Shown here piece by piece: positions 2,821 to 59,813 of a stretch of DNA of 64,000 nt. Below the pieces are notes generated by a model. That model saw only the letters and a list, made by a program, of their open reading frames with translations. It was not told where the DNA came from and searched no databases. The translations under genes and the position numbers were made by a program. Numbering within the stretch: position 1 is the first letter of the stretch; every line of letters starts with the position of its first letter. The DNA comes from Affinirhizobium lemnae (GTDB taxonomy: Bacteria > Pseudomonadota > Alphaproteobacteria > Rhizobiales > Rhizobiaceae), in assembly GCF_022968395.1 (NCBI RefSeq), contig NZ_JALJQZ010000017.1, positions 1-64,000 of the forward strand, written 5' to 3'.

Positions 2821-3900
2821 ATGAACACGCTGAGAGCTGCACTACAGGGTGCTGTCGAGAAAGGGCTTGTTGATGCCGCCAAGGTCGCGGATCTCGAGCG
2901 GCATTTGTCGAAAGCGCTTGCCTTGCCTGCTGGCTCCGTGGCGGACGGTATGCTGTCGTCACCGCCGGATACGGAAGCCCCCCGGTTTCTACGTGGTTTT
3001 CACGATGTGCTGATCAGCATCGGCATCCTGATCCTGTTTGCCGGCCTTTGGGGGCTCGGCAATATCTTCGTCATCACGCCTGCCATCATTCTCCTGTCTG
3101 AAATACTGGTCGCGCGCCAGCGTCTGGCTTTGCCCGCGGTCGTGCTGACCATTTCGGCTGCGGCGGTGACCTGGATTGCGGGGTTGGTGATCCTGGGCGA
3201 TTACGTCGATGCTGACACTTCGCTGGGTATTGCCGCTTATGTGGCCCCGTTTCCGGCGGTGCTCGGGCTCTATGCCTTGCGTTACCGAGTTCCGCTCGCC
3301 GTTGCGCTCTTCATTGCCTTCTGTCTGGCTCTGGCTACGATGCTTGTCTTCGCACTGCTGGAGCGAGTGTTCGGGGTGCAACATTTCATCACGAGCTATC
3401 CGTTTCTGCTGGTCTGCATTCTGTTGCTCTCGGCGGGCGGGCTGTTTGCCATTGCTATGCGTTTTGATCTTGCTGACCGCCATCGAATTTCGAGAAGCGC
3501 CGATATTGCCTTCTGGCTTCATCTGATGACGGCGCCTGCCTTGCTGTATGCCGTTCTTTCCTTTGTCATCTACCTTCGGACCGGAGCGTTGAGAATCGCC
3601 CCGGAGAGTTGGCAAGGCGATCTGGCGCTGCCGATCATAGCCGTCGTGTCCTGCCTGATGCTGGTGGGCATTCTGATAGACCGGCGCGCGTTTGCGACCT
3701 CCGGACTTGTAGCGCTTGTCGTCGCCGTGATCGGGATCCTGAAGGAACAGCAACTGACCGGCGATCTGATCGTGTTCATGGCGCTTGCCGTTGTCGGCAT
3801 CGTCGTGCTGCTGGTGGGCGTGGGATGGCGTTATCTGCGCCACCGGGTGCTGGAACTCTTTCCGCCTGCCATGGCCGAAAAGCTGCCGCCTGCTGCGTGA
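2821..3900 (+). CDS. DUF2157 membrane protein
   Basis: A 359-residue polytopic inner-membrane protein. The soluble N-terminal ~60 residues (VEKGLVDAAKVADLERHLSK) match the DUF2157 start and are followed by many hydrophobic helices (from about residue 60 to 345). The ATG at 2821 is chosen over upstream in-frame codons because a strong ribosome site, gggaggag, precedes it. No enzymatic motif is visible. Function unknown; DUF2157 proteins are widespread in proteobacteria without an assigned role. Confidence 0.8.
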   Translation: MNTLRAALQGAVEKGLVDAAKVADLERHLSKALALPAGSVADGMLSSPPDTEAPRFLRGFHDVLISIGILILFAGLWGLGNIFVITPAIILLSEILVARQRLALPAVVLTISAAAVTWIAGLVILGDYVDADTSLGIAAYVAPFPAVLGLYALRYRVPLAVALFIAFCLALATMLVFALLERVFGVQHFITSYPFLLVCILLLSAGGLFAIAMRFDLADRHRISRSADIAFWLHLMTAPALLYAVLSFVIYLRTGALRIAPESWQGDLALPIIAVVSCLMLVGILIDRRAFATSGLVALVVAVIGILKEQQLTGDLIVFMALAVVGIVVLLVGVGWRYLRHRVLELFPPAMAEKLPPAA

Positions 3901-3902
3901 GT

Positions 3903-4808
3903 TTAGGTCGGTCGGTTCATGTTGCTCCGCGCACAGCTGACGATGGTCTCTGTGAGGGCCTTGAGAGGCGTTACGGCGGAGGACTTTATCTGCCAGTACA
4001 GCGGAACGTCGATCGGATGTGCAGGCGCCAGATCCACGAGTGTGCCGTTGGCGAGATGGTGGTGCAAGAGATAAAGTGGGCTCATACCCCATCCCAATCC
4101 CAGCAGACAGGCATCGATAAAGGCATGGCTGGAGGGGAGCCAATGGTTTGGAAAAGCGACCTGTTGGCCGGTGACCCTGCGAACCCAGCTGTCCTGCAGC
4201 CGATCCTTACGGTTGAAGACAATGCCGGGCGCCTTCTGCAGCGTTTCTCTCGTGAGCCCCTTGCTGAAATATTTCTGGCGGAATGCGGGTGAGGCGGTCG
4301 CAAGATAGGTCATGGCACCGAGCGAGAACGTCTTGAAGCCCGCAACAGGTTCCGGCTGTGCGGTGACTGCACCGATAGCCCGACCTGCTTTCAGGATGTC
4401 GGTCGTATGATCCTGATCATCCACAATCACATCGAACAGATAGCCCGTACTGGAACTCGCGGCGGCGGCAGCGCTGAGAAACCAGGTGGCGAGACTGTCG
4501 GAATTGACCGCCAACGGGATCGTAACCCGGTCCTCGCTGTCACGGTTGGGAGGCAGGGCCGGGAGGGCGGCGGAAAGGTCATGCTCCAGCATCAAGACCT
4601 GCTCGACATGGCGACAGATCAACTCGCCCTCGCTGGTCGCGGTGCAAGGCTGGCCACGTACAATCAAGATCGTGCCAAGGCGTTCTTCCAGCGCCTTGAC
4701 CCGCTGCGAGACCGCAGAAGGTGTAACGGACAGCTTCTGGGCAGCCTTTTCGAAGCTGCCCGTGCGCACCACCATCGCCACTGCCTGCAGTCCGCCATAG
4801 TCCAGCAT
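3903..4808 (-). CDS. argP: ArgP/LysG-type LysR regulator
   Basis: A 301-residue LysR-family activator. The N-terminal winged helix reads LDYGGLQAVAMVVRTGSFEKAA with KLSVTPSAVSQRVKALEERLG as recognition helix, typical of ArgP (IciA)/LysG regulators. ArgP activates export of arginine or lysine when these are in excess. It is divergent from the LysE/ArgO-type exporter at 4902, the classical arrangement of this pair, which supports the assignment. Confidence 0.88.
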   Translation of the reverse strand: MLDYGGLQAVAMVVRTGSFEKAAQKLSVTPSAVSQRVKALEERLGTILIVRGQPCTATSEGELICRHVEQVLMLEHDLSAALPALPPNRDSEDRVTIPLAVNSDSLATWFLSAAAAASSSTGYLFDVIVDDQDHTTDILKAGRAIGAVTAQPEPVAGFKTFSLGAMTYLATASPAFRQKYFSKGLTRETLQKAPGIVFNRKDRLQDSWVRRVTGQQVAFPNHWLPSSHAFIDACLLGLGWGMSPLYLLHHHLANGTLVDLAPAHPIDVPLYWQIKSSAVTPLKALTETIVSCARSNMNRPT

Positions 4809-4821
4809 CGGATTAGTTTTC

Positions 4822-4872
4822 CTTAATTCGCGTAAGGAGCCTTCATTTTACTTAACTCGCCTGGCCGGTTAA
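4822..4872. promoter_or_regulatory. Divergent argP-argO control region
   Basis: The 93-base gap between the divergent genes contains two dyads: CTTA - 7 bases - TAAG (4822-4836) and TTAAC - 11 bases - GTTAA (4852-4872). LysR-type regulators bind T-N11-A dyads, so these are the likely ArgP sites. The assignment is by position and shape only. Confidence 0.45.
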
Positions 4873-4901
4873 TTCCAGACTATTCAGTTAAAGGAAATGG
4901 C

Positions 4902-5510
4902 GTGATCACAACGGCCTACACGACGGGTTTCAGTATCGGGCTTAGCCTCATCGTCGCGATTGGGGCTCAAAATGCCTTCGTGCTGCGGCAGGGTTTGCGA
5001 AACGAGCATGTTCTGGCCGTCGCCCTGACCTGCGCGCTTTCCGATGCATTGCTTATCTTCTTCGGCGTCAGTGGTTTTCAGCAAATCCTTGCGTCTGCGC
5101 CATGGATCGATCCTGTCATGCGCTATGCGGGGGCGGCGTTTCTGCTGTGGTATGGCGCGCGCAGCCTGCATTCCGCCGTGACGGAAGCTTCCAGCCTCGT
5201 GATCACGGAGGGCGCCGGACTGCCTTTCTCGACGGTGATCTCCACCTGTCTCGCTTTCACCTGGCTCAATCCGCATGTCTATCTGGATACGGTCGTGCTG
5301 GTAGGGACGCTTTCAACCCGCTTCCCGGGCGAGGAACTGATCTTCGCCGCAGGAGCATCAACGGCTTCACTGGTCTTCTTTTTCTCGCTCGCTTACGGCG
5401 CGACTTATCTGAGGCCCCTGTTTGCGAAGCCCTCGGCGTGGCGCTTACTCGATACCTGCATTGCCCTCATCATGTGGACGATTGCCGCAACGCTGCTCCT
5501 CGAGGTTTGA
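4902..5510 (+). CDS. argO: ArgO/LysE-type basic amino acid exporter
   Basis: A 202-residue inner-membrane exporter of the LysE superfamily with about six hydrophobic helices. GFSIGLSLIVAIGAQNAFVLRQGL (about residues 8-31) is the signature start of the LysE/ArgO branch, and WLNPHVYLDTVVL matches its conserved NPxxxLDT segment. The start is GTG 4902, preceded by aagga at the right distance. The divergent ArgP-type regulator supports a role in arginine or lysine efflux. Confidence 0.88.
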   Translation: MITTAYTTGFSIGLSLIVAIGAQNAFVLRQGLRNEHVLAVALTCALSDALLIFFGVSGFQQILASAPWIDPVMRYAGAAFLLWYGARSLHSAVTEASSLVITEGAGLPFSTVISTCLAFTWLNPHVYLDTVVLVGTLSTRFPGEELIFAAGASTASLVFFFSLAYGATYLRPLFAKPSAWRLLDTCIALIMWTIAATLLLEV

Positions 5511-5530
5511 GCCTCTTCGCGAACAACAAA

Positions 5531-5556
5531 GCCGCCGGTGCGGGTGCAGCGGCGGC
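5531..5556 (-). terminator. Possible terminator after ychF
   Basis: A GCCGCC/GGCGGC stem with a 14-base loop lies between the convergent argO and ychF genes. On the minus strand it is followed by TTTGTTGTT, a weak T-rich tract; on the plus strand there is none. Confidence 0.4.
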
Positions 5557-5581
5557 CAGTATGGAGCGAATGTCGCTTTGA

Positions 5582-6685
5582 TCAGGTATTGAAGCGGAAA
5601 TGGATGACGTCGCCGTCATTCACGACATATTCCTTGCCTTCATCGCGGCCCTTGCCCGCTTCCTTGGCACCGACTTCGCCCTTGAAGGCAATGTAGTCGT
5701 CATAGGAAATGGTGAAGGCGCGGATGAAACCACGTTCGAAATCGGAGTGGATAACGCCTGCCGCCTGTGGCGCCTTGGTGCCGCGAACGATGGTCCAGGC
5801 ACGCGTTTCTTTTGGGCCAACGGTGAAGTAGGTGATCAGATCGAGCAGGTGGTAGCCAGCGCGGATCAAGCGATCAAGGCCTGCTTCGTCAAGGCCGAGC
5901 GCAGAGAGGAATTCGGTTGCTTCCTCTTCCGGCAATTGAGCGACTTCGGCTTCGATGGCAGCGGAAATGATGACGCATTCTGCGCCCTGTTCCTTCGCCA
6001 TGGCAGCAACCGCTTCGGTATGCTTGTTACCCGTGGCGGCATCTGCCTCTGCGACGTTGCAGACATAAAGAACCGGATGGGAAGTCAGCAGGTTGAGACC
6101 CTTGAGAACGGCAATCTCATCGGTTCCCAGTGTCTTCAGCAACAAGCGAGCCGGCTTGCCCTCATTGAGAAGCTTGATCACGGCTTCCATGACCGGAAGC
6201 TGTGCCAGCGATTCCTTGTCCTTGCCGGTCGCACGCTTGCGGGTCTGTTCCACGCGGCGCTCCAGGCTTTCGAGGTCCGCCAGCATCAGTTCGGTTTCGA
6301 TGGTTTCGGCGTCACCGACCGGGTTGATGCGGCCTTCGACGTGGGTGATGTCGTCATCTTCGAAGCAACGCAGAACGTGGACCACAGCATCCACTTCGCG
6401 AATGTTGGCGAGAAACTTGTTGCCGAGACCTTCACCCTTCGAGGCGCCGCGCACCAGGCCGGCAATATCCACGAAGGAAATGCGGGTCGGGATGATTTCC
6501 TTCGAGCCCGCGATGGAAGCCAGCTTCTGCATGCGTGCATCTGGCACGGCCACTTCACCCGTATTGGGCTCAATGGTGCAGAAGGGATAGTTGGCGGCCT
6601 GTGCAGCAGCCGTTTTCGTCAGCGCGTTGAAGAGCGTCGACTTGCCGACATTGGGCAGGCCGACGATGCCGCATTTAAATCCCAT
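5582..6685 (-). CDS. ychF: Redox-regulated ATPase YchF (EngD)
   Basis: An Obg-related P-loop ATPase of 367 residues, the usual length. It has the Walker A GLPNVGKST (residues 8-16), the switch region DIAGLVRGASKGEGLGN, and NVAE in place of the GTPase NKxD motif, which is the YchF hallmark for ATP preference. The C-terminal TGS-like domain holds DLITYFTVGPKETRAW. The ATG at 6685 (MGFKCG) is chosen because it gives the standard N-terminus; the open frame extends a further 100 codons upstream without family similarity. It associates with ribosomes and affects oxidative-stress responses. Confidence 0.95.
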   Translation of the reverse strand: MGFKCGIVGLPNVGKSTLFNALTKTAAAQAANYPFCTIEPNTGEVAVPDARMQKLASIAGSKEIIPTRISFVDIAGLVRGASKGEGLGNKFLANIREVDAVVHVLRCFEDDDITHVEGRINPVGDAETIETELMLADLESLERRVEQTRKRATGKDKESLAQLPVMEAVIKLLNEGKPARLLLKTLGTDEIAVLKGLNLLTSHPVLYVCNVAEADAATGNKHTEAVAAMAKEQGAECVIISAAIEAEVAQLPEEEATEFLSALGLDEAGLDRLIRAGYHLLDLITYFTVGPKETRAWTIVRGTKAPQAAGVIHSDFERGFIRAFTISYDDYIAFKGEVGAKEAGKGRDEGKEYVVNDGDVIHFRFNT

Positions 6686-6932
6686 AAGGGTTGACCCGTC
6701 GTTGTTTTCGATTTGGCTTCGGCTATGGGGGAAGAAGGTCATCGGGTCAAGGGCAAGCGATGCGAGCAGAGGCTTAAATCCCGTCCGTGGAGGGCTGCGC
6801 GACTTGTCCGCGACCTTTTCAGGCAGTAAGCTTGCTATGACGCGGGGCTGATGCCCGTCGCGCATCTTGCCATCTATCAATATCCGTGCTGATCGCTTGT
6901 GAGCGACAATTGAGCCTGTTGGGAACGCGGCC

Positions 6933-7241
6933 ATGAGTGAGAATACGACTGTCAAGCCGACGACAAAGGCGAAGCCAAAGCTCGAAAGACCCAAGCTCTA
7001 CAAGGTCATTCTCTTGAACGACGACTACACGCCGCGCGAATTCGTGACGATCGTGCTGAAGTCGGTGTTCCGCATGAGCGCGGAGGCTGGACACCGCGTG
7101 ATGATGACGGCGCACCGCATGGGGCTTGCTGTCGTTGTCGTCTGTGCCAAGGATATTGCCGAGACGAAGGCGAAGGAAGCGGTGGAGCTCGCCAAGGAGG
7201 CCGGGTTCCCGCTGATGTTCATCACTGAACCGGAAGAGTGA
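6933..7241 (+). CDS. clpS: ATP-dependent Clp protease adaptor ClpS
   Basis: A 102-residue ClpS adaptor. The core reads KLYKVILLNDDYTPREFV (about residues 22-39), the N-degron-binding patch, then HRMGLAVVVVCAKDIAE, the conserved end. ClpS docks on ClpA and delivers N-end-rule substrates to ClpAP. Alphaproteobacteria commonly carry two copies; this one is isolated, with no clpA next to it, which fits the second copy (ClpS2), but that split is an inference. Confidence 0.9.
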   Translation: MSENTTVKPTTKAKPKLERPKLYKVILLNDDYTPREFVTIVLKSVFRMSAEAGHRVMMTAHRMGLAVVVVCAKDIAETKAKEAVELAKEAGFPLMFITEPEE

Positions 7242-38790: not shown

Positions 38791-39068
38791 TTCTCATTTT
38801 CCTCAGTCTTATGCCCACAACTGGCAGACACAAAAAGAAACAGGTTCCGGAGCGGTGCTTCGGAACCATGTGAAAACTCTTCTAGCGTCATCATAGCAGA
38901 ATCGCGAAGCGGAAAGCCAGCAAATTCGAGACAGGGTTTTTTCTGCTGCCGAACAGGGGATGGTCGGCTCGCCCGATAATCCGATCGAAAGCGAAAGCGC
39001 CTATTTTGTAACCAACTCCGAAAAGGATCGTTGACTCCATCGACAAGAACTTTTAGTGAACATCCGTG

Positions 39069-40301
39069 ATGAAAAAGTCGCTGAAAGAACGTTTGGCTAT
39101 CCTTTCCGATGCAGCGAAGTATGATGCGTCCTGCGCGTCTAGCGGTACTACGCGGCGCGATTCAATCTCGTCTGGAGGATTGGGGTCGACAGAAGGGTCT
39201 GGCATTTGCCACGCCTATGCGCCCGATGGCCGCTGTATTTCGCTTCTGAAAATACTGCTGACGAACTTCTGCATTTATGATTGCGCCTACTGCATCAATC
39301 GGTCGTCCTCAAATGTAGAGCGTGCGCGCTTTACGCCGGAAGAGGTGGTTTGGCTGACCATGGAGTTCTATCGCCGGAATTACATCGAGGGCTTGTTTCT
39401 TTCCTCCGGCATTATCCGCTCGTCTGACCACACGATGGAGGAAATGGTCAAAATCGCGCGGGATTTGCGCACGGTTCACAATTTTCGCGGCTATATTCAC
39501 CTGAAGACGATCCCGGAAGCGTCTGCGGCATTGATCGAGGAGGCTGGGCTTTATGCCGACCGTTTGTCGATCAATATCGAATTGCCCACGGACAAAGGCA
39601 TCAGCCAGTTCGCACCGGAAAAGAAGCCCGAGGGTATCCGTCGCGCCATGGGTGATCTTCGGTTGAAGATCGAGGATGCATCCGAGCCGACATTAAAGAC
39701 CAAGCGTCGGAAGAAGTTCGTACCGGCCGGGCAGAGTACGCAGATGATTGTTGGCGCTGATGGAGCCAATGACGCGACCATTCTCGGGACGAGCGCACGG
39801 CTGTACGGAAGTTACGGTCTGAAGCGGGTTTATTATTCGGCGTTTAGTCCGATACCGGATGCATCCTCCAAGTTGCCGCTCATCAAGCCGCCGCTCGTGC
39901 GAGAGCATCGTCTTTACCAAGCGGACTGGCTTTATCGTTTCTACGGCTTTGATATCGGCGAAATCACATCTGCAACCGCAGACGGAAACCTCGATCTGGA
40001 ACTGGATCCCAAGCTGGCATGGGCGCTTGCGCATCGGGATTGCTTCCCCGTAGATATCAACAAGGCCCCGAAGGAGATGCTTCTCCGGGTGCCGGGCTTC
40101 GGTACCAAGACGGTCAGATCCATCCTGTCGTCGCGGCGTTTCCGTCGGCTCAGGATCGAAGATCTCGGTCGTCTCGGTGTGTCCTTGCGCAAGGTGCAGC
40201 CCTTCATTGTGGCTGATGGCTGGACGCCGCACCGGATGATCGATCGCAGTGATTTGCGACAGATGTTCTCGCCGCAGCCTGAGCAATTGACGCTATTCTG
40301 A
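39069..40301 (+). CDS. Radical SAM protein, putative DNA modification/repair
   Basis: A 410-residue radical-SAM enzyme of the family annotated as putative DNA modification/repair radical SAM protein. The [4Fe-4S] motif is CIYDCAYC (Cys-x3-Cys-x2-Cys, about residues 66-73), ending a segment LLKILLTNFCIYDCAYCINR. The C-terminus has a helix-hairpin-helix DNA-binding element, EMLLRVPGFGTKTVRSIL (about 336-353). It overlaps the next gene by one base (TGATG), which is a DUF4130-UdgX fusion; the pair acts together. The substrate is unknown. ATG 39069 follows a GTG that is also in frame. Confidence 0.88.
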   Translation: MKKSLKERLAILSDAAKYDASCASSGTTRRDSISSGGLGSTEGSGICHAYAPDGRCISLLKILLTNFCIYDCAYCINRSSSNVERARFTPEEVVWLTMEFYRRNYIEGLFLSSGIIRSSDHTMEEMVKIARDLRTVHNFRGYIHLKTIPEASAALIEEAGLYADRLSINIELPTDKGISQFAPEKKPEGIRRAMGDLRLKIEDASEPTLKTKRRKKFVPAGQSTQMIVGADGANDATILGTSARLYGSYGLKRVYYSAFSPIPDASSKLPLIKPPLVREHRLYQADWLYRFYGFDIGEITSATADGNLDLELDPKLAWALAHRDCFPVDINKAPKEMLLRVPGFGTKTVRSILSSRRFRRLRIEDLGRLGVSLRKVQPFIVADGWTPHRMIDRSDLRQMFSPQPEQLTLF

Positions 40302-41773
40302 TGCTGAAGATCTGTCTCAATGGATGTGGCGACTTTACGGAATGGCGCTACGCGGCGCGTGTTCTTCTAATGTGTGATGTGACCCCGGCCGATGTGGTGT
40401 GGGAAAGCGGCTCATCGGTCGAGAGCGGTCTGGGTTTCGGCGAGAGCGAATTGCCGGTTCCGTCGCCAACAGCGGCTGCACCCAGTGTACCGCCGGCGTT
40501 TCTCGATCTGGCGCAGACGGTCATCTGTCATTCGAATCCGGACCGCTTTGCCCTGCTGTATCGGTTGCTCTGGCGCATTCGATCAGAGCGTCATCTGATC
40601 GGTATCGTTTCAGACCCGGATGTCATTGCTGCGCGCAAGCTGGAGAAATCTGTCCGCCGCGACAGCCACAAGATGAAAGCCTTCGTGCGCTTCAAGGAGG
40701 TTCCCTCTCGCGATCCGATGGAGCGGCGGCGGGCGTTTTTTGCCTGGTTCGAGCCGGATCATTACATCGTGGCGCGGATGGCACCGTTCTTCAAACGCCG
40801 CTTCTTCGATATGGACTGGGTCATTGCAACACCGAAGGGCTCTGCCGCCTGGGACGGCGAGGAGCTGACCGTCTCCGACGAACCCGCCGAGAAGCCGGAA
40901 ATCCGCGACGACGCCGATGATCTCTGGCGTATCTACTATGCCAATATCTTCAATCCCGCGCGGCTGAAGGTGAAGGCAATGACGGCGGAGATGCCGAAGA
41001 AATACTGGAAGAACCTGCCGGAGGCGGACCTTATTCCCGACCTCATTGCCAATGCCGAAGCCAAGGTGCGGGAGATGGCCGAACGTGCTGCCTCCCAGCC
41101 GCCTGCGTTTCACCAGCGGCTTCAGGACCGCATGGCTGCCGGCGAACTGAATGAGCCATCATTTCCAGAGGGGACACTGGAAGCTCTGCGTCAGGATGCC
41201 CGTCACTGTACCCGTTGCGAACTGCATTGTCGGGCAACCCAGACTGTGTTTGGCGAAGGCTCGCAATCGGCCAGGGTCATGTTCGTCGGTGAACAGCCGG
41301 GGGATCAGGAGGATCTGGCTGGCCGTCCCTTCGTTGGTCCGGCTGGCAAGGTTTTCGACACGGTGGTCAATGAGGTCGGGTTGGATAGGCGTGAGTTTTA
41401 CGTCACCAACGCGGTGAAGCATTTCAAATACGAACCGCAGGGAAAGCGCCGTATTCACCAGAAGCCGAACCAGGGTGAGATACAGGCTTGCCGGTGGTGG
41501 TTGACCAAAGAGGTGGAACTGATCAAGCCGTCTCTGGTGGTGGCTATGGGTGCGACGGCCTATTACGCTTTGACCGATCACAAGGAAAAGCTTCAGGATG
41601 TGCGCGGCATGTCCATCGCGATGAGTAGCGGTTGCACGTTGTTTGTGACTGTTCATCCATCCTATTTGCTACGCATTCCCGACGAAGCTAGGAAGTCAGC
41701 GGAATTCGAGAAGTTCCGGTTGGATATGGCGGCTGTCCGGCGGCTGGCGCAAGAATCTCCAGCGATACGGTGA
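40301..41773 (+). CDS. DUF4130-UdgX uracil-DNA glycosylase fusion
   Basis: A 490-residue two-domain protein. The N-terminal ~250 residues match DUF4130 (KMKAFVRFKEVP, MAPFFKRRFFDMDWVIATPKGSAAWDG). The C-terminal ~200 residues are a UdgX-type family 4 uracil-DNA glycosylase: CTRCELHC, GEQPGDQEDLAGRPFVGPAGK, KRRIHQKPN and HPSYLLR. The KRRIH loop is the hallmark of UdgX, whose His binds covalently to the abasic site after uracil removal. Cotranslated with the radical-SAM gene. Confidence 0.9.
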   Translation: MLKICLNGCGDFTEWRYAARVLLMCDVTPADVVWESGSSVESGLGFGESELPVPSPTAAAPSVPPAFLDLAQTVICHSNPDRFALLYRLLWRIRSERHLIGIVSDPDVIAARKLEKSVRRDSHKMKAFVRFKEVPSRDPMERRRAFFAWFEPDHYIVARMAPFFKRRFFDMDWVIATPKGSAAWDGEELTVSDEPAEKPEIRDDADDLWRIYYANIFNPARLKVKAMTAEMPKKYWKNLPEADLIPDLIANAEAKVREMAERAASQPPAFHQRLQDRMAAGELNEPSFPEGTLEALRQDARHCTRCELHCRATQTVFGEGSQSARVMFVGEQPGDQEDLAGRPFVGPAGKVFDTVVNEVGLDRREFYVTNAVKHFKYEPQGKRRIHQKPNQGEIQACRWWLTKEVELIKPSLVVAMGATAYYALTDHKEKLQDVRGMSIAMSSGCTLFVTVHPSYLLRIPDEARKSAEFEKFRLDMAAVRRLAQESPAIR

Positions 41774-58898: not shown

Positions 58899-59321
58899 AT
58901 GCCGCAGACGACGCTGAGGATACCCACGCGAGGCCAGGGGCTTTACGAGTTCACCGAACAGGCGAGCTCCTTCGTGGGTCAGGCTGGTATTCTCGAAGGC
59001 CTATTGACTGTTTTTGTCCGACATACGTCGTGTTCGCTGATCATTCAGGAGAATGCCGATCCTGACGTCCAGACCGACTTGAAGCATTTCTTTCAGCGGC
59101 TGGTTCCACCGAGCGACGACGCTTCGATGCGGTGGATGATCCATACGACGGAGGGGCCGGATGATATGCCTGCCCATATAAAATCTGCACTGACTCAGGT
59201 ATCGATCGGAATTCCCATCATGGCCGGTCGTTTGGCGCTTGGCACGTGGCAGGGCATATATCTGTTCGAACATCGCGACCGGCCTCATCAGCGTGAGGTT
59301 GTCTTGCATGTGTCTTCGTGA
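58899..59321 (+). CDS. yjbQ: YjbQ/UPF0047 protein
   Basis: A 140-residue protein of the YjbQ family (secondary thiamine-phosphate synthase-like). It has GLLTVFVRHTSCSLIIQENADPDVQTDL (about residues 36-63), MPAHIKSALTQVSIGIPI and LGTWQGIYLFEHRDRPHQREVVLHV. His and Asp residues in HTSCSL and ENADPD are the conserved site. Thiamine-phosphate synthase side activity has been shown for E. coli YjbQ; the main role is not clear. Confidence 0.92.
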   Translation: MPQTTLRIPTRGQGLYEFTEQASSFVGQAGILEGLLTVFVRHTSCSLIIQENADPDVQTDLKHFFQRLVPPSDDASMRWMIHTTEGPDDMPAHIKSALTQVSIGIPIMAGRLALGTWQGIYLFEHRDRPHQREVVLHVSS

Positions 59322-59426
59322 GCAGATGAACGTTTTCTGAACGCGAAATTCGGAACCTGTTCAGAAGTTTGGTGCTATTTCTCCATCATCGCCGAAGAGG
59401 CCAGGAATTAGCCGGAGACCCCGCCC

Positions 59427-59813
59427 ATGAAAATGATCATCACCAAGACCGTTCTTGCCGCCGCCGTGATGGCAACGGCTGCTCTGGCCCCGCTTGCCAG
59501 TGCGTCAGCCTCTGACGATCTGCGCATCCAGGTCCAGTTCTTCGATGGTCGTCGTGATGAAGGACCGCGCTGGGACCGTGGCCCGGATCGTGATTGGGGT
59601 CGTGATCGTGGCCGTGACTGGGGCCGCGACCGTGATCGCGACCGGGGCTGTGCTTCCTGGATGGCTGAGGAAAAGGCCTCCCGCATGGGCCTTCGCCGCG
59701 CGCATGTTGTTGATGTCAATCGTCGTGTCGTTGTCGTCAACGGCTATGATCGCGGCGGACCAAACCGTATCATCTTCGCCAACGAGCGTGGTTGCCCAGT
59801 CGTGAGCCGCTGA
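59427..59813 (+). CDS. Secreted Arg/Asp-repeat protein, unknown function
   Basis: A 128-residue protein with a signal peptide (MIITKTVLAAAVMATAALAPLASASA, about 3-28). The mature part has a repeated RD-rich stretch (DRDWGRDRGRDWGRDRDRDR, about 54-73) and a C-terminal domain with CASWMAEEKASRMGLRR and NERGCPVVSR, two Cys that may form a disulfide. It resembles small periplasmic rhizobial proteins but no function is recognised. Confidence 0.65.
   Translation: MKMIITKTVLAAAVMATAALAPLASASASDDLRIQVQFFDGRRDEGPRWDRGPDRDWGRDRGRDWGRDRDRDRGCASWMAEEKASRMGLRRAHVVDVNRRVVVVNGYDRGGPNRIIFANERGCPVVSR

Follow-up and report, generated by a model that had tools for sequence, protein, structure and literature searches.

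A predicted SOS operon of Affinirhizobium lemnae in which a radical-SAM gene overlaps a DUF4130-UdgX fusion gene

The stretch of DNA analysed here (the window) comprises positions 1 to 64,000 of contig NZ_JALJQZ010000017.1 of Affinirhizobium lemnae (assembly GCF_022968395.1). It contains two overlapping genes on the forward strand (Table 1), one coding for a radical S-adenosylmethionine (radical-SAM) protein with a C-terminal helix-hairpin-helix (HhH), the other for a fusion of a DUF4130 region with a UdgX-type uracil-DNA glycosylase (UDG), and they are preceded by a LexA operator. The open reading frame (ORF) of the radical-SAM protein begins with the ATG at 39069, the ORF list also giving a GTG at 39066 as an alternative start. 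Its TGA (40299-40301) and the ATG of the fusion gene (40301-40303) have exactly one base in common, in the sequence CTGATGC, and reading of this junction confirmed the arrangement given in a preliminary description of this DNA. Overlaps of one or four bases between the two genes are found in 66 of 80 related loci from a genome collection (the 80 relatives, which are Alphaproteobacteria as far as their titles tell); the arrangement is therefore not a matter of chance.

Both gene products belong to curated families. The radical-SAM protein matches PF04055 (36.5 bits against a cut-off of 29.5) and TIGR03916, rSAM_link_UDG (579.8 bits against 343.5), and possesses both features of the latter family, the CxxxCxxC motif and an adjacent DUF4130 gene. 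The N-terminal part of the fusion protein matches TIGR03915 (205.4 bits against 112.25) and PF13566 (133 bits against 27), and its C-terminal part matches TIGR03914 (336.5 bits against 189.95). Thus the radical-SAM identity of the first gene and the fusion of a UdgX domain to DUF4130, both proposed previously from the sequence, hold at the level of profile matches. The linkage of the three families is already curated in NCBIfam, where the model names rSAM_link_UDG and SAM_7_link_chp state it, and the window locus is a typical fused member with no essential difference from the others.

The LexA operator GAACTTTTAGTGAAC, of the alphaproteobacterial class GTTC-N7-GTTC, lies at the promoter and is separated from the ATG at 39069 by seven bases; it was absent from the preliminary description. 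Taken alone, the motif is unspecific, with 179 matches in the genome and 161 for the reversed pattern, and the window holds four such sites against 2.1 expected, a number reached in 19 of 100 shuffles. As these values are close to those of the controls, the case for the operator rests on its conservation. The box was found within 200 bases upstream of the pair in 78 of the 80 relatives, at positions -17 to -44, against none or one of 80 for the control patterns (reversed pattern, N6 and N8 spacings), and its spacer is also kept (A in 72, T in 74 and A in 73 of the 78 at the first three positions). The two relatives without an exact box, L057 and L058, have a copy with one mismatch, and all 25 further alphaproteobacterial loci among L127-L155, some of them from species of the same genera, contain the box. 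The own lexA gene of the genome carries GTTCCATATGTGTTC, a site of the same class, about 48 bp beyond its matched start. Among 11 loci of other groups, three (L117 from Cupriavidus, and L152 and L155 from genomes of other classes of the phylum) have the pattern CTGT-N8-ACAG, which we take to be the operator class of beta- and gammaproteobacterial LexA.

Control of such genes by LexA is already known in relatives, as is the family set itself. The radical-SAM family of the window locus is presumably COG4277. A two-gene COG1573-COG4277 operon under LexA, in which, as here, a UDG gene accompanies a second gene, has been described in Bacteroidetes, with Verrucomicrobia and Alphaproteobacteria also cited (PMC8565304, excerpt); the pair CAC3343-CAC3344 of Clostridium acetobutylicum, likewise a radical-SAM gene with a gene of unknown function, is under putative LexA control (PMC3828012, excerpt); and GTTCttgttatGTTC is given for two SOS genes of Caulobacter (PMC12700426, excerpt). 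An Acinetobacter gene bearing the family name 'repair radical SAM protein' rises on drying (PMC13130816, excerpt). Based on the box upstream of the gene in 78 of the 80 relatives and on the published LexA control of related pairs, the two genes are predicted to form an SOS operon with an operator of the organism's own class, and the depth of conservation observed here is a confirmation of what was known. Together with the co-occurrence of the two genes (see below), the operator supports the proposal of the preliminary description that the pair is a DNA-damage system. Two observations on other sites of this genome may be added. A second GTTC-N7-GTTC site, GTTCAGAAAACGTTC, is located at 59328-59342, between an ORF ending at 59321 and one at 59427 (chance alone would give about two such sites in a window), and a gene with a LexA/UmuD-like peptidase domain (L125, G000:C16:57131-57472) has GAACAAACAGGGAAC about 86 bases beyond its matched start.

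Among 190 alphaproteobacterial genomes, the radical-SAM family was found over its cut-off in 10 and DUF4130 in 10; nine genomes have both, side by side in each case. The radical-SAM match left over (G045) is fragmentary and comes from a genome of 85% completeness, and the tenth DUF4130 gene (G182) stands behind a reduced radical-SAM ORF that retains the C-terminal end only; weak partial radical-SAM matches under the cut-off in seven more genomes, of which that of G182 has just been described, were not counted. In a set of 299 Pseudomonadota genomes, partly overlapping the 190, a radical-SAM gene over the cut-off is present in 53, all of which also have DUF4130, and DUF4130 without the radical-SAM gene is present in three more. 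The genes are thus not apart in most genomes, in agreement with the pairing assumed in the preliminary description.

The distribution of UdgX is different. UdgX exceeds its cut-off in 16 of the 190 genomes and is fused in six of the nine pairs; in nine genomes it occurs without either of the other families over the cut-off. It is fused in 37 of the 53 Pseudomonadota pairs, is undecided in one (G367, at a contig end) and has no match in 15, 'no match' meaning none at E 1e-60 and fusion being judged by the adjacency of match coordinates; 12 of the 17 pairs outside Alphaproteobacteria are UdgX-less. One of the 15 (G330, locus L139) has a frameshifted UDG remnant without motif A beside intact radical-SAM and DUF4130 genes, and UdgX may have been lost there in nature, or the frameshift may be a sequencing error. 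The 80 relatives comprise 67 fused loci, 12 with a DUF4130-only partner and one cut by a contig end. Six other loci, from Acinetobacter, Phocaeicola, Fusobacterium and three gut contigs, have DUF4130 and no UdgX, and in the control genome of Bacteroides ihuae the radical-SAM and DUF4130 models match and the UdgX model does not.

In a phylogeny of 116 radical-SAM proteins, the presence or absence of UdgX requires eight changes, at least five of them forced by starred branches, against a mean of 22.9 for shuffled states. The tree was a quick one without bootstrap, with several long branches flagged (L113, L115, L119, L120 and L127 among them). It omitted L116 (distant), L037, L051 and L146 (contig end), L112 (no DUF4130), L142 and L145; L147 and L150, with labels undecided at the contig edge, were replaced by L160 and L161 from the same genomes, and L139, its UDG reading frame being broken, was counted as UdgX-less. 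Judging from these sequence comparisons, the core unit is the radical-SAM gene together with DUF4130, and UdgX is an optional addition to it. This pattern speaks against a radical reaction that arose in order to resolve the UdgX adduct. Here our reading departs from the published treatment of the COG1573-COG4277 operon as UDG-based base excision repair (PMC8565304, excerpt), the UDG part being the dispensable one in the family set analysed here. As a separate observation, in L160 and L161 (G401 and G413) about 3 kb of inserted DNA separates the radical-SAM gene from the DUF4130-UdgX gene, and the insert of L160 holds a gene for a parallel beta-helix protein (TIGR03805).

The radical-SAM protein contains six cysteines, C22, C47, C56, C68, C72 and C75, kept in all 90 aligned proteins, the window protein included and L116 set apart, and the motifs around C22 and C56 are kept in 32 further distinct loci (34 rows with two repeats). 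The last three form the CxxxCxxC motif. Because the three further cysteines are invariant, the natural reading of this conservation suggests that Cys22, Cys47 and Cys56 are ligands of a candidate second Fe-S cluster. All six are retained in L112, though it has no adjacent DUF4130 gene. The triad is absent from the distant paralogue L116 of a Gemmatirosa plasmid, upstream reading included, which has no adjacent DUF4130 gene and is the single comparison available for absence of the triad. This radical-SAM/HhH paralogue (3501-4595) is followed by a long non-DUF4130 ORF (4623-6962) and possibly represents a separate family.

The structure model of the radical-SAM protein is of moderate quality, with a predicted local distance difference test score (pLDDT) of 76 that falls under 50 for residues 22-57; the alignment prepared for the structure prediction (A3) contained the window protein and 66 of 81 relatives. 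Its best fold matches, lipoyl synthase, HydE, biotin synthase (BioB) and HydG, are tied within about one Z unit; the match to lipoyl synthase 4u0p has a Z score of 13.9 and a root-mean-square deviation (rmsd) of 3.5 over 215 residues. Lipoyl synthase has an N-terminal auxiliary cluster before its CxxxCxxC. The window protein differs from lipoyl synthase, HydE and biotin synthase by its HhH DNA-binding tail, by the spacing of its cysteines and by an identity of 8-18% over the aligned part. No chain of spore photoproduct lyase (SPL) is among the 50 best fold matches listed in two structure comparisons, and no SPL name among the sequence and profile matches listed, absences that carry no exclusion. 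The HhH tail, claimed in the preliminary description, is borne out by a profile match to the ComEA-related structure 2duy (E 0.0016, profile positions 322-377), with RuvA matching weakly; Pfam gave sub-threshold HHH_3 and HHH_5 matches in the radical-SAM protein of one relative and, at E 0.001, none of the HhH families in the window protein.

Only seven DUF4130 residues, R130, F131, P152, F164, R167, I175 and R221, are identical in all 88 sequences compared, and one or more of these sequences have a different residue or a gap at each of D105, H123, E151 and E241. As the invariant residues include none of these acidic and histidine positions, the pattern is weak evidence for nucleic-acid binding over a classical acid- or metal-dependent enzyme. 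The fusion protein is modelled with a mean pLDDT of 90 and a predicted template modelling score of 0.63. UDG chains fill the matches listed for this model in Foldseek against PDB and in VIA-align, and the BFVD list is headed by UDG and polymerase-borne UDG-like entries. With an 18-sequence DUF4130 profile, no PDB match had an E value below 0.29; Pfam, scanned at a lax threshold with six proteins, gave DUF4130 itself and two sub-threshold matches in one protein, and PHROGs gave weak matches only. The alignment of downstream proteins (A4) consisted of the window protein and 67 of the 80 downstream proteins, leaving out those cut by a contig end (L037, L051), with an unread base (L046) or with a doubtful start (L077, L093), and near-copies (L044, L059, L060, L067, L069, L091, L096 and L108). 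In the open-licence literature searched, DUF4130 is named in one paper only, which calls it a predicted mutagenesis-related enzyme (PMC3765255, excerpt).

The UdgX domain has the sequence features of its family: a score over the cut-off, motif A GEQPG, the R-loop KRRIH (noticed earlier from the sequence) with the cross-linking histidine, and the HPS of motif B. Its model superposes on 6l6s_A with a Z score of 30.2 and an rmsd of 1.5 over 196 residues. E331, Q332, N370, R384 and H386 are kept in all 70 fused proteins, which had been selected for having G[ED]QPG (motif A), and align with E52, Q53, N91, R107 and H109 of Mycobacterium smegmatis UdgX, His386 corresponding to the cross-linking His109; the single exception in motif B, L051, is a gap in a sequence cut by a contig end. 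Residue roles are taken from work on the M. smegmatis enzyme (PMC10359453, excerpt; PDB 6ail and others), from which the window domain differs in its fusion to DUF4130 and its location in an SOS operon with a radical-SAM gene. Since the catalytic residues are kept, covalent capture is likely to be retained.

In several genomes the pair neighbours the imuA-imuB genes. At L140, L141, L143 and L144, all from one family, the intact operon and imuA-imuB point away from each other across a common gap that contains a LexA box. In the longer stretches L168 (a larger stretch of the L141 genome) and L169 this box is the sole GTTC-N7-GTTC of the stretch, and a DnaE-type polymerase gene follows imuB (identified by Pfam in L168 and by eye in L169). 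At L157, L158 and L159 (G389, G458 and G373) DUF4130 stands beside imuA with a LexA box, with UdgX at two loci and without it at one; no radical-SAM gene and no convincing remnant was found in these three genomes. They share their genus code with L141, L143 and L144, where the operon beside imuA is intact, and the radical-SAM gene was presumably lost from them. At L166, L167 and L170, from another family, imuB is on the strand of the operon and 0.9 to 2.5 kb upstream of it, and each of the two units has a box in front. The distance to the upstream imuAB is 2.9 kb in Rhizobium sp. Leaf371 (L050). ImuA was called from weak NCBIfam matches below the cut-off (34.7-39.4 bits), and ImuB from matches to IMS, IMS_C and DUF6504, some of them under threshold. 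ImuA or ImuB was found at only ten of the screened loci, most of which held 1.5 to 5 kb of flank. The window has no ImuA or ImuB match, and its genome has no ImuB match and one DnaE only, as searched with an ImuB query from another family, which finds the L050 ImuB at 43% identity; the module does not seem to need the ImuAB mutasome in this genome. No paper reporting adjacency of the operon and imuAB was found in the literature searched, and the figures or additional file of PMC3765255, from which an excerpt was available, may show it.

Taken together, these features may describe an SOS-induced, translationally coupled module for the processing of DNA damage, in which the radical-SAM and DUF4130 proteins would act jointly on DNA; we regard this reading as having an even chance of being correct. 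DNA damage would lead to LexA cleavage and to synthesis of both proteins together. The radical-SAM protein, with its HhH tail and the DUF4130 protein keeping it on DNA, would perform a radical reaction on the lesion, possibly aided by the candidate second Fe-S cluster, and DUF4130 would bind DNA and serve as a partner or substrate-presenting subunit. The fused UdgX would excise uracil and stay covalently bound at the abasic site, thus parking the pair at uracil or abasic sites in SOS gaps or shielding such sites; its role would be to anchor the pair, the radical step having another substrate. Several observations weigh against this reading. The loop with the three additional cysteines is modelled with a pLDDT under 50, which leaves conservation alone to speak for the second cluster, and with no fold or catalytic residue assignable to it, DUF4130 may be an enzyme. 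G373, G389, G458 and G182 have DUF4130 but no complete radical-SAM gene, and at L112, an IMG/VR contig, the radical-SAM gene adjoins a different ORF; hence neither partner is strictly obligate. L112 may be a genuine exception or an artefact of its contig. Eight of the 11 loci of other groups (L113, L114, L115, L119, L120, L121, L127 and L148) had no match to any LexA pattern tried, and L164 had no GTTC-type box, the only type scanned there. Finally, no biochemical or genetic result and no activity for the pair was found in the open-licence literature, nor were the TIGR03916 and TIGR03915 model numbers in the part searched.

More tentatively, and with the balance leaning against it, the radical-SAM/DUF4130 pair could be a two-cluster radical enzyme acting directly on damaged DNA, in a kind of SOS repair or base modification chemically distinct from SPL, with DUF4130 as a DNA-binding subunit and UdgX as a repeatedly gained or lost covalent anchor, wired in several lineages to ImuAB(-DnaE2) through shared or neighbouring LexA operators. 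A rather unlikely alternative is direct reversal of a UV or oxidative base lesion in the manner of SPL, with DUF4130 as a helper only. SPL is a single-cluster enzyme acting alone, whereas the window protein has three extra invariant cysteines and an almost invariant protein partner; moreover, no SPL chain is among the sequence matches listed, again without exclusion. The HhH tail and SOS control are compatible with direct reversal, and an excerpt of PMC3765255 places SplB-like radical-SAM proteins in DNA-damage operons and names the DUF4130-associated ones SplB-like radical SAM photolyases. From SPL itself the window protein differs by its HhH tail, cysteine triad and protein partner. It is unlikely that the operon is a mutagenesis factor. 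Its divergent position to imuA-imuB with a shared LexA box in four genomes, its position downstream of imuB on the same strand at L166, L167 and L170 and near imuAB in L050, the divergent DUF4130 genes of L157-L159 that lack a radical-SAM neighbour, and the published prediction for DUF4130 (PMC3765255, excerpt) all fit such a role; against it stand the window's genome, with one DnaE and no match to the ImuB query from another family, and the small number of loci with ImuA or ImuB, given their short flanks.

The extra N-terminal cysteines and the rank of lipoyl synthase among the fold matches would suit a modification pair, transferring for example sulfur or a methyl group to a damaged pyrimidine instead of repairing it, and enzymes that might modify thymines are mentioned in an excerpt of PMC3765255. 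However, the tied fold matches include non-sulfur enzymes, and this role is quite unlikely. Less probable still is the idea of the preliminary description that the radical-SAM partner resolves or modifies the covalent adduct of UdgX and the abasic site. The fixed gene order with its one-base overlap and the retention of UdgX catalytic residues in 69-70 of the 70 fusions are in its favor, but UdgX is missing from 15 of the 53 Pseudomonadota pairs, 12 of the 80 relatives and the six further loci, and its presence without the pair in nine of the 190 genomes speaks against a radical step serving the UdgX-made site. Only a UdgX domain points to defence against phages with uracil-containing DNA, an explanation we consider most improbable in view of the SOS control and of the fact that neither protein has a PADLOC match at E 0.01. 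The reading of the operon as a module in which the radical-SAM and DUF4130 proteins act jointly on DNA directs attention to this pair, and to UdgX-less relatives, as the first half to study, with Cys22, Cys47 and Cys56 and Arg130, Arg167 and Arg221 as the residues singled out. The LexA-controlled pair has been reported or seen in several bacterial groups, and if it is a radical enzyme of DNA repair or modification, it would represent a new chemical class within the SOS response.

Table 1. Coordinates of the operon features in the window
Feature	Position	Strand	Remarks
LexA (SOS) operator GAACTTTTAGTGAAC, class GTTC-N7-GTTC	39047..39061	.	conserved in relatives
Radical-SAM/HhH protein	39069..40301	+	410 amino acids, TIGR03916
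Cys22, Cys47 and Cys56 codons (39132, 39207, 39234), candidate second Fe-S ligands	39132..39236	+	C in 90/90
CxxxCxxC (Cys68, Cys72, Cys75), SAM-binding Fe-S cluster	39270..39293	+	C in 91/91
C-terminal helix-hairpin-helix, approximate limits	40032..40199	+	profile match to ComEA-related 2duy
DUF4130-UdgX fusion	40301..41773	+	490 amino acids; start overlaps radical-SAM stop by one base
N-terminal region with DUF4130/TIGR03915	40301..41050	+	Pfam core residues 80-241
UdgX domain (TIGR03914)	41030..41737	+	profile and structure matches
Motif A GEQPG, residues 330-334	41288..41302	+	E331 and Q332 in 70/70 fused proteins
R-loop KRRIH, residues 382-386	41444..41458	+	His in 70/70; alignment to solved UdgX
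Motif B HPSYLLR, residues 452-458	41654..41674	+	H452 and R458 in 69/70

Clustering of the neighbours at the 80 loci revealed no recurrent third gene on the same strand; the method is weak, since with greedy ORF choice in GC-rich loci even the two known genes came out in just 70 and 63 of the 80. Recurring neighbours such as carB and greA, named by eye, look like Rhizobiaceae synteny. A phage origin of the locus was considered and rejected: IMG/VR gave only one full-length and one partial locus, and of the 10 INPHARED records four were examined, one of which holds glyS and glyQ and looks chromosomal. L113 (CAKLQH020000003), named as an Acinetobacter phage, has the appearance of a host chromosome, with glyS and glyQ next to the pair. 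In PLSDB 158 records were found, 142 of them typed as non-mobilizable.

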